A DNA stretch of 40,735 nt. Origin: Campylobacterales bacterium. GTDB taxonomy: Bacteria; Campylobacterota; Campylobacteria; Campylobacterales; Sulfurimonadaceae. Position 1 is the first letter of the stretch. Each line of letters opens with the position of its first letter. Under the pieces are notes generated by a model, which was not told the origin of the DNA, did no database searches, and was given only the letters and a program-made list of their open reading frames with translations. Shown here one piece after another: positions 6,679 through 40,735 of the stretch. The stretch lies in NCBI GenBank assembly GCA_024280035.1, contig JAJRQV010000047.1, forward strand, positions 1 to 40,735. The letters are read 5' to 3'. A program made the translations under genes and the position numbers.

Positions 6679-7955
6679 TATGCACGCAATGCTTGGTATG
6701 CTATATCAGTACGAAGTTTTTTACCTGCAAAATGAACCTGCCCACATAAGGCATAGGCTCTGTCTCTGGCTTCTTGAATACTGTAACCCAAACCAACACA
6801 CACAAGAACACGTCCGCCTGAGGCGAAAAGAACACCCTCTTCTTTTTTTACACCAGCATAAGAGATATGGGTATTATTTTTTATCTCTTCATGATGAATC
6901 TCATCTACAACAATCTCAGCTGGCGTTGATGAAGAGTAAGGATAATCACGTGAAGCCATCACCACACCTACACCATATTTATCATAAAACTCAACATTAA
7001 GTTCATTGAGTTTTCCTGTTGCTGCCTTGTGAAAAAGGTCAAATACCGAAGATTTCATTAATGGCATTAAAATCTCACATTCAGGATCACCAAAACGCAC
7101 ATTAAACTCTAGGGTAATAGGTTCACCATTCACCACCATAATCCCAATAAAAAGAACACCTTCAAAAGGAGCACCCTCTTTTTTCATTCCATCTAAGGTT
7201 GGACGAATAACACGGTCTTTTACTTTTTGGTAGAGTTCATCATCTACAAGAGGTGTTGGAGCATACGCACCCATTCCTCCAGTGTTTGGTCCTTCATCAC
7301 CATCTAAAAGACGTTTATGGTCTTGTGCTGCTTGAAGAAGAACATAATCTTCACCATCACAAATAGCAAACATTGAAAGCTCATACCCATCAAGAAACTC
7401 TTCAATAATTACTTTAAGCCCCGCATCACCAAAAGATTTACCGCTTAACATTTCAGAAGCCGCTTTTTTAGCCTCATCATGACTAGACGCAATAATTACA
7501 CCCTTACCCGCACAAAGCCCATCCGCTTTTACAACAATAGGTACTTCTAAGGTATCAATAAATTTAAACACTTCTTCAATACTGTCAGACTCAATGTAAC
7601 GCGCGGTAGGAATATTATATTTTGCTAAAAAGTTTTTCATATAAACTTTTGAACCCTCAAGCTGCGCCGCTTCTTTAGAGGGACCAAAAATCGTTAAACC
7701 TTCTGCCTTAAAGATATCAACAACACCATCAACAAGAGGTGCTTCTGGACCTACAATAGTAAACTCAATATTATTATCTTTAGCATACTGAGCCAATTCA
7801 TGATAATCTTTAATATCTACGTTTTGACCTAAGTTTTCAGTCGCCCCATTACCTGGGCAGAAGTAGAGTTTATCAACATTTTCATCATCTTTCATAGCAC
7901 GGCCAATAGAGTACTCTCTACCACCACTTCCCATTATCATTACGTTCACATTCAT
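6678..7955 (-). CDS. purD: Phosphoribosylamine-glycine ligase (GAR synthetase)
   Basis: PurD joins glycine to 5-phosphoribosylamine with ATP, the second step of purine synthesis. The 425-residue product shows the N domain (VNVMIMGSGGREYSIGRAM), the ATP-grasp fold with VVKADGLCAGKGV (about 140-153), the strongly conserved GDEGPNTGGMGAYAPTP, and the metal-binding EFNVRFGDPE. Length matches the family. The ATG is preceded by AAGGAAT. The gene opens an operon with the RDD protein, lptD, the phosphoribosyltransferase-like gene and pnp, and is preceded by a structured leader (7956-8046) that can hide this ribosome binding site. Confidence 0.98.
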   Translation of the reverse strand: MNVNVMIMGSGGREYSIGRAMKDDENVDKLYFCPGNGATENLGQNVDIKDYHELAQYAKDNNIEFTIVGPEAPLVDGVVDIFKAEGLTIFGPSKEAAQLEGSKVYMKNFLAKYNIPTARYIESDSIEEVFKFIDTLEVPIVVKADGLCAGKGVIIASSHDEAKKAASEMLSGKSFGDAGLKVIIEEFLDGYELSMFAICDGEDYVLLQAAQDHKRLLDGDEGPNTGGMGAYAPTPLVDDELYQKVKDRVIRPTLDGMKKEGAPFEGVLFIGIMVVNGEPITLEFNVRFGDPECEILMPLMKSSVFDLFHKAATGKLNELNVEFYDKYGVGVVMASRDYPYSSSTPAEIVVDEIHHEEIKNNTHISYAGVKKEEGVLFASGGRVLVCVGLGYSIQEARDRAYALCGQVHFAGKKLRTDIAYQALRA

Positions 7956-8046
7956 TCCTTACAGGAAATGAGCAAAAGCTCATCTTCCTTACGATAACTC
8001 TACGTTTCCTTCAGCAGGAAACTCACGTACAGTTAACCGTACTTTC
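7956..8046 (-). promoter_or_regulatory. Structured purD leader (purD RNA motif candidate)
   Basis: Three elements lie in a row on the minus strand. First is a compound stem at 7990-8038: an outer stem joins TACGG/TTAACT to AGTTA/TCGTA, an inner stem follows with a GTGA bulge, and a terminal hairpin GTTTCC/GGAAAC lies at 8004-8022. Second is a perfect hairpin ATGAGC-TTTT-GCTCAT at 7968-7983. Third is a hairpin at about 7953-7970 that pairs the purD ribosome binding site AAGGAAT with CATTTC. The element's AGGAAA arm is also complementary to TTTCCT at 7963-7968, so freeing the RBS by alternative pairing is possible. A motif called purD RNA has been reported at this place in Epsilonproteobacteria, as I recall. 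The same 49-base element recurs before ribH. Confidence 0.75.
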
Positions 8047-8080
8047 TTTTAATTTTTATATATTATTTAATTCAATGCTT

Positions 8081-8243: not shown

Positions 8244-8434
8244 TGTCCGGGTGGGCGTTTCGCGTGTAGCGATGGTTCTCAAAGCCTAAAATGGTCAAAC
8301 GAAAGAGTCATCATAGGTAGCAGATTCTAAGGTTTGCACCCTCAAACAAAAATACTTCACACAAACTCTCTACGGCGTCAACCCAATGTATATGTAGAAC
8401 CCCCTGATATGCGATTAGTCGCTTCACCCAGGCT
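8244..8434 (-). ncRNA. Structured RNA, 6S-like candidate
   Basis: Four nested stems give a rod of about 190 bases on the minus strand: GCCTGGGTG with CACCCGGAC (8425-8433 with 8245-8253, 8 of 9 paired), GGTTCT with AGAACC (8396-8401 with 8274-8279), AGAGAGT with ACTCTTT (8365-8371 with 8302-8308) and GTTTG with CAAAC (8343-8347 with 8332-8336). A closing stem, a large central internal loop of over 20 bases per side and a terminal stem match the general plan and size of 6S RNA, which binds the RNA polymerase holoenzyme. It has its own strong promoter and is clearly richer in G+C than its flanks. I cannot match it to 6S, tmRNA, SRP or RNase P RNA by sequence, so the identity is inference from shape. 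Confidence 0.5.
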
Positions 8435-13719: not shown

Positions 13720-13734
13720 ATTGTGTAACACAAT
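13720..13734. promoter_or_regulatory. Palindrome upstream of nadB, candidate operator
   Basis: ATTGTGTAACACAAT has perfect 7-base arms around a central base and lies 18-32 bases before the nadB start. The position suits an operator for a NAD-responsive or other dimeric repressor. It could also be the stem of a small hairpin. I do not match it with confidence to a known regulator site. Confidence 0.4.
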
Positions 13735-13847
13735 AAAGAAGCAAAAGCTTTTTTATTTATCTTAACACTACGTTTAATAAATACTAACACCTAATATTTT
13801 CACCTTTTTTTGGGAAAACACCATGCATCAATCTCTATACATTAATC

Positions 13848-40603: not shown

Positions 40604-40735
40604 TATTTTCCTTAATTTTATTTCATAAAATGAAGAGAACCCTTCATTAATTTAAAACGGCATTGAAGCAAAAACCCCAAGACCTACGTTAACACTAGGT
40701 TCTCTTCAAAAAAGAGCTCACGTGCAGTCAACCAC
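40604..40735 (-). promoter_or_regulatory. Structured ribH leader sharing the purD element
   Basis: On the minus strand positions 40733-40685 align without gaps to the purD leader element (36 of 49 identical). The stem GGTTGAC/GTTAAC closes it. Its inner hairpin CTCTT/AAGAG overlaps the sequence GAAGAGAACC (40698-40707). That same sequence is perfectly complementary, over 10 bases, to GGTTCTCTTC at 40632-40641, which itself lies within a perfect 7-bp hairpin (AATGAAG/CTTCATT, 40629-40648). The two pairings exclude one another. A GGGGTTTTTG run at about 40671-40680 lies between them. The 5' part of the leader is cut by the window edge. Confidence 0.6.

Follow-up and report, generated by a model that had tools for sequence, protein, structure and literature searches.

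What is the element that stands directly upstream of both purD and ribH in one Campylobacterales genome, and does it regulate the two genes in common? The DNA analyzed here (the window) is a stretch of 40,735 nt from a Campylobacterales bacterium (Sulfurimonadaceae), covering positions 1 to 40,735 of contig JAJRQV010000047.1 in assembly GCA_024280035.1. The initial annotation described a 49-base element before purD that recurs before ribH, took the pair as a common cis-regulatory RNA, and suggested that it may be the known purD RNA motif.

Related Elements Upstream of purD and ribH

We compared the two sites directly. The elements at 7990-8038 and 40685-40733, both on the minus strand, were identical at 36 of 49 positions in an ungapped alignment, whereas the runner-up for the 49-base element on that window strand had 25 identities and none exceeded this. 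A covariance model (R3) was then built from 83 copies of other genomes only, with own-genome sequences left out. R3 recovered both the purD site (E 1.7e-13) and the ribH site (40651-40730, E 4e-9). Therefore, these results confirmed that the element before purD recurs before ribH. The conserved unit was approximately 92 bases and extended beyond the earlier 49; it took in the next hairpin and stopped at the purD Shine-Dalgarno sequence. The folding z-score of the purD-leader unit was -5.25. The copies in the window and the adjacent signal are as follows.

7955..8047, minus strand, repeat copy directly upstream of purD (R1 92.4 bits; R3 75.5 bits)
40651..40735, minus strand, repeat copy in the kdsA-ribH spacer, incomplete at the contig end (R1 79.3 bits, truncated; R3 53.4 bits)
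13724..13802, minus strand, probable decayed copy with hairpin 2 mostly lost (R1 32.9 bits, E 3.5e-5; R3 E 0.011)
7956..7961, minus strand, purD Shine-Dalgarno sequence UAAGGA, assigned from sequence

The probable start codon of purD is the GTG at 7949, the residue at which PurD alignments of relatives begin; an ATG at 7955 abuts the Shine-Dalgarno sequence (window 7940-7961). A complete kdsA-ribH copy was found at the end of contig C68, with kdsA upstream (L036 1501-1592; 93.2 bits). Contig ends often fell on repeat copies, as at window position 40735, in contigs C21, C34, C39, and C40 of G003, and in C107 of G025, the likely cause being that short-read assembly breaks down at near-identical or tandem copies.

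Relationship to the Rfam purD Motif

Next, the proposal that the element may be the known purD RNA motif was examined with the Rfam model RF01069, which matched elsewhere.

8245..8373, minus strand, Rfam purD motif RF01069, a separate element and part of 6S RNA (53.6 bits against a gathering score of 41; PMC3847290)

This match lies on the same strand as purD, approximately 200 bases upstream of the repeat copy and without overlap, and in 7930-8080 RF01069 remained without a match even at E 10. In Campylobacter and Helicobacter, 6S RNA has been reported to occupy the region upstream of purD and to include what had earlier been put forward as a riboswitch (PMC3847290). Thus, purD is preceded by 6S RNA and then by a separate repeat copy directly before the Shine-Dalgarno sequence. 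The repeat is not the purD motif; the two RNAs share their position upstream of purD and their strand. The 6S RNA of the window appears to extend towards about 8080.

An Rfam scan of 20 repeat loci gave no match of the repeat at gathering scores. The purD copy weakly matched TD-1 (RF03155; 17.1 bits, E 0.81), which has a similar order of unpaired GUU.A.CU, hairpin, UUA..GUA, and hairpin; however, this score is far under the 64.5-bit cut-off. TD-1 was rejected as the family, since its model failed to find the repeat in six copy-bearing genomes.

Predicted Fold and Covariation

Comparison of the copies predicts a core of ~90 bases in which hairpin 1 leads into a compact H-type pseudoknot, followed by a GUUA-loop mini-hairpin, GYAG, and a second hairpin (hairpin 3). 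In the purD copy, the predicted parts are as follows.

8027..8042, minus strand, hairpin 1 with a variable loop and a GUAC/GUAC stem (97.2% of cells paired in 85 copies; double changes at 6/6 pairs)
8006..8023, minus strand, compact H-type pseudoknot (AGU 8023-8021 with GCU 8015-8013; UCCU 8019-8016 with AGGA 8010-8007)
7993..8000, minus strand, mini-hairpin G-X-GUUA-Z-C (X-Z is here the rare A-U state)
7964..7989, minus strand, hairpin 3, with GYAG on its 5' side in most copies (96% of cells paired; double changes at 10/11 pairs; from the fold)

The initial annotation had looked to covariation of paired positions for support, and this was strong. Across 85 distinct copies, 97.4% of cells paired under this structure and 605 cells carried double changes, compared to 187 in shuffles. 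The covariation score was 0.739 against 0.26 for shuffled data, and it fell to 0.18 or less when partners were slid by one to three columns; most helices had been used in fitting the underlying alignment, whereas the pseudoknot and mini-hairpin had not.

The pseudoknot has a 3-bp stem, a one-base loop, and a 4-bp stem, with no linker and a two-base loop GA. Its stems paired in 98.4% and 99.7% of cells, and its first pair was A-U in 51 and G-C in 34 of the 85 copies, with zero exceptions. We also examined 173 cores collected by a regular expression, which were not chosen on pseudoknot pairing. The first pair was G-C in 91 and A-T in 80 of them, with two exceptions, providing independent evidence for the pseudoknot. 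In the same cores, the X-Z pair of the mini-hairpin was CG in 92, UA in 64, UG in 12, and AU in 2, and its loop was GUUA in 164. GYAG (GTAG or GCAG) stood directly 5' of hairpin 3 in 163, and most had a conserved bulged T near the tip of hairpin 3. In the purD copy, the 3' arm of hairpin 3 (UUUCC) ends 2 bases before the Shine-Dalgarno sequence. Extra hairpins of ~38-50 bases were observed in the hairpin 3 loop or the hairpin-2 region at L017, L043 (8398-8529), L048, and L054.

Copy Number and Distribution

In a plain search of the genome itself, four further copies came up, one before rpsP, one beside accD, and two in antisense, after rplQ and between rplJ and rplL. With a covariance model from six copies, approximately 20 copies were found in this genome and copies were present in 26 of 41 genomes. 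Across the order, a broader model detected the repeat in 103 of 299 genomes and 26 of 82 genera, with 54 and 67 copies in two complete genomes. The core pattern occurred in at least 119 stretches of GTDB genomes; nearly all titles among the matches listed were Campylobacterota, including Sulfurimonas, Sulfuricurvum, Sulfurovum, Sulfurospirillum, Hydrogenimonas, and one Arcobacter MAG. One plasmid match was obtained (Sulfurovum mangrovi). Phage was rejected as the vehicle: annotated phages gave no match, and the sole match to the core pattern in the IMG/VR collection was one copy in an uncultivated viral contig (L271, 5713-5739).

The copies sit in short spacers between unrelated genes in both orientations. 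Some form tandem head-to-tail arrays of identical units, such as three of 86 bp in L174. The period of such arrays equaled the unit length, with some units identical, at L174 (3090-3340), L199, L212, L224, and L010. Copies within genome G000 differed by about 20% with pairing retained. A literature search returned no prior description of this repeat.

Gene Specificity and Orientation

The repeat was absent from all 27 other purD loci and all 29 other ribH loci inspected, each set including five same-genus genomes; among 28 purD and 30 ribH loci, the genome of the window alone carries it. More than 100 copies lay in spacers of unrelated operons. For the 111 copies between co-directional genes, 63 were sense and 48 antisense, which is not different from an even split (p 0.18); the gene calls came from a simple script, and single assignments may be wrong. 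Thus, neither conservation before purD or ribH nor a constant sense orientation, as expected of a cis-regulatory RNA specific to these genes, was found; lack of conservation before the two genes in relatives is an outcome that the initial annotation had named as refuting its reading. The proposal of a common cis-regulatory RNA stands only in part: the element is recurring, structured, covarying, and directly before both genes, but no particular set of genes goes with it, and many copies are antisense. The sequences at purD and ribH are copies of a dispersed repeat and not a dedicated switch for both genes.

We then compared G-U pairs with A-C mismatches on the element strand. The counts were 42 vs. 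6 over the copies and 9 vs. 1 in antisense copies, indicating that it is the element's own strand whose fold is conserved, regardless of the direction in which the operon is transcribed. This is easier to reconcile with a mobile unit, or with a fold under selection on the element, than with a fold maintained in host mRNA alone.

Sense Copies with a Leader Form

A second module, consisting of a GAAGGG-CCCUUC hairpin, an AUUUUAU-GAA-AUAAAAU hairpin, and AAGGA, occurred 19 times (a few being the same locus fetched twice), in every case between a sense copy and a start codon. The copy before ribH has this long-form tail.

40609..40647, minus strand, long-form tail before ribH: AUGAAGGGUUCUCUUCAU hairpin, AUUUUAU-GAA-AUAAAAU hairpin, and Shine-Dalgarno sequence AAGGA (a module seen only downstream of sense copies)

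In a structural search, 21 of 187 cores were followed by a hairpin able to include the Shine-Dalgarno sequence, and almost all of these preceded a start codon; random windows gave 8 of 2576, and the opposite side of the core gave none (0 of 187). Genes with the leader form included dnaK, nifU, rplL, a hypA-like gene, and ribH; the names, except for dnaK, rplL, and ribH, derive from first residues. In the grpE-dnaK spacer of ~26 family genomes, we observed 12 sense copies (two weak) and three antisense matches (all weak); at this site, two congeneric species differed. Sense copies that run into a conserved Shine-Dalgarno leader, ribH among them, suggest domestication. Some sense copies beside start codons (ribH, dnaK, nifU, rplL) may have been kept as part of the 5' leader, whose hairpins and adjacent Shine-Dalgarno sequence might influence how stable the downstream cistron is or how it is translated, in line with reports on ERIC.

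These observations bear on the alternative that the repeat is a class of cis-regulatory RNA, in which the core would act as the sensor of a signal, with the downstream hairpins exposing or hiding the Shine-Dalgarno sequence of genes such as purD, ribH, dnaK, nifU, and rplL. The strong covariation, including the pseudoknot, the Shine-Dalgarno hairpins after sense cores, and the recurrence before dnaK would agree with such a class. However, almost half of the intra-operon copies are antisense, no relative tested has the repeat at purD or ribH, and the targets lack a common pathway. In addition, predicted minimum-energy folds left the Shine-Dalgarno sequence free in most long forms tested; so no switch is claimed, and one that hides the Shine-Dalgarno sequence was set aside and kept only as a possibility. 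We therefore consider a regulatory class of this kind unlikely.

Gain, Loss, and Unit Ends

The dispersed repeat was further examined at orthologous sites. Within the genus of the window genome, the joined flanks of filled sites matched unbroken empty spacers in other species. In genus g37, represented by two complete genomes, the unit measured about 140-150 bp and was bounded by the terminal inverted repeats AGASTTCTTGCA...TGCAAGAACTCT; these outer arms were also present in Sulfurospirillum diekertiae (L218). The terminal inverted repeats were clear in this one genus, and the window copies are without them. Comparison with empty sites of the sister genome revealed target duplications of ATTA at L322, AATA at L328, and TAAT at L349; that is, 3-4 bp were duplicated at three of six aligned empty sites, and the other three were ambiguous or shorter. 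The repeat is thus small, non-coding, multicopy, and dispersed mostly between genes, and it is present or absent at orthologous sites. The inverted-repeat ends, target duplications, and empty orthologous sites together indicate a MITE/ERIC-like repeat.

Several other repeats were also seen. The copies at L209 and L227 were framed by other inverted repeats, AATGCCATTAAG...CTTAATGGCATT, which suggests mosaic units. The palindrome TTTACATGTAAA was frequent in intergenic DNA of g37 genomes (flanks of L322, L335, and L349). The kdsA-ribH spacer of G001 (L095), the counterpart of the repeat-bearing spacer in the window genome, contained a short palindromic repeat of a different kind, GGTCGCGGAGCGATGTTTCAGGCGAAGCCGAATC.

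A REP/RAYT-type element, with hairpin 3 and its 5' GYAG as the REP moved as single-stranded DNA by a Y1 transposase, would account for the GYAG directly 5' of hairpin 3, the conserved bulged T, and the strand-specific fold. However, Y1 transposase genes were absent from the copy-rich genomes G000, G014, and G019, and none of ten Y1 genes had a repeat copy within about 1.5 kb, so that a Y1 transposase flanked by copies was not found. Moreover, the target duplications and terminal inverted repeats of complete units fit a DDE transposase better, and we regard the REP/RAYT origin as very improbable. An independently transcribed small RNA gene family is more doubtful still: the fold and G-U bias do track the element's own strand whatever the neighboring genes, but a shared promoter outside the fold was not noticed in an unsystematic look, most copies have no T run after hairpin 3, and copies are embedded in short operon spacers.

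Interpretation as a Dispersed Repeat

The elements before purD and ribH are, with good confidence, two members of a MITE/ERIC-like family of non-coding repeats dispersed between genes in Campylobacterota. The repeat has many copies in both orientations, gain and loss at orthologous sites, precise duplicating insertion at three sites, and a fold of its own strand. In genus g37, insertion duplicates 3-4 AT-rich bases, and the copies were presumably moved by a transposase acting in trans. Some points count against a mobile repeat. No mobilizing transposase was identified, Y1 being absent from G000 and G014 and ten Y1 loci having no copy nearby. Clear terminal inverted repeats are limited to one genus and are missing from the window copies. 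The divergent yet paired copies of G000 are unusual for decaying inactive MITEs. The sense-only long form also suggests regulation beyond mobility. A further reading, which we consider less likely than not, is that a mobile family with its own pseudoknotted RNA domain serves as a portable 5' leader and Shine-Dalgarno module when it lands in sense before a start codon, thereby rewiring the relative expression of neighbors in operons such as grpE-dnaK, rplJ-rplL, nifS-nifU, and kdsA-ribH across Campylobacterota.

About one in three genomes sampled from the order contain the repeat, some with more than 50 copies, yet the 20 loci scanned gave no Rfam match to it at gathering scores and the literature searches found no description. 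Annotators would otherwise take single copies for gene-specific riboswitches, as in the initial annotation. Tight pseudoknot covariation in a mobile-like repeat, along with the sense leader form before dnaK, nifU, and rplL, offers a testable case of repeats domesticated as translation leaders.

Comparison with Known Bacterial Repeats

Among reviewed bacterial repeats, ERIC, RUP, and CIR are the nearest kinds (PMC2229807). ERIC (IRU, RU-1) of enterobacteria is about 127 bp, with a reported orientation-dependent effect on mRNA stability (PMC2229807). Similarly to our repeat, it is multicopy, intergenic, and strongly base-paired with inverted-repeat ends (PMC2229807), but it differs in sequence and lineage. 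ERIC forms one end-to-end stem, in contrast to the open hairpin chain with a conserved pseudoknot predicted here, and the Campylobacterota repeat additionally has a Shine-Dalgarno leader form that is confined to sense copies. RUP of Streptococcus pneumoniae and the NEMIS/Correia MITEs are likewise small non-autonomous units that have terminal inverted repeats and duplicate their targets (PMC2229807); however, RUP is linked to IS630-Spn1 and TA targets, whereas the duplications observed here are 3-4 bp. The CerM-associated intergenic repeats (CIR) of Caulobacter resemble our repeat in having independent stem-loop arms and a linker rather than end pairing (PMC2229807), but CIR has an exposed GANTC motif and two long arms, and a pseudoknot is not described for it in PMC2229807.
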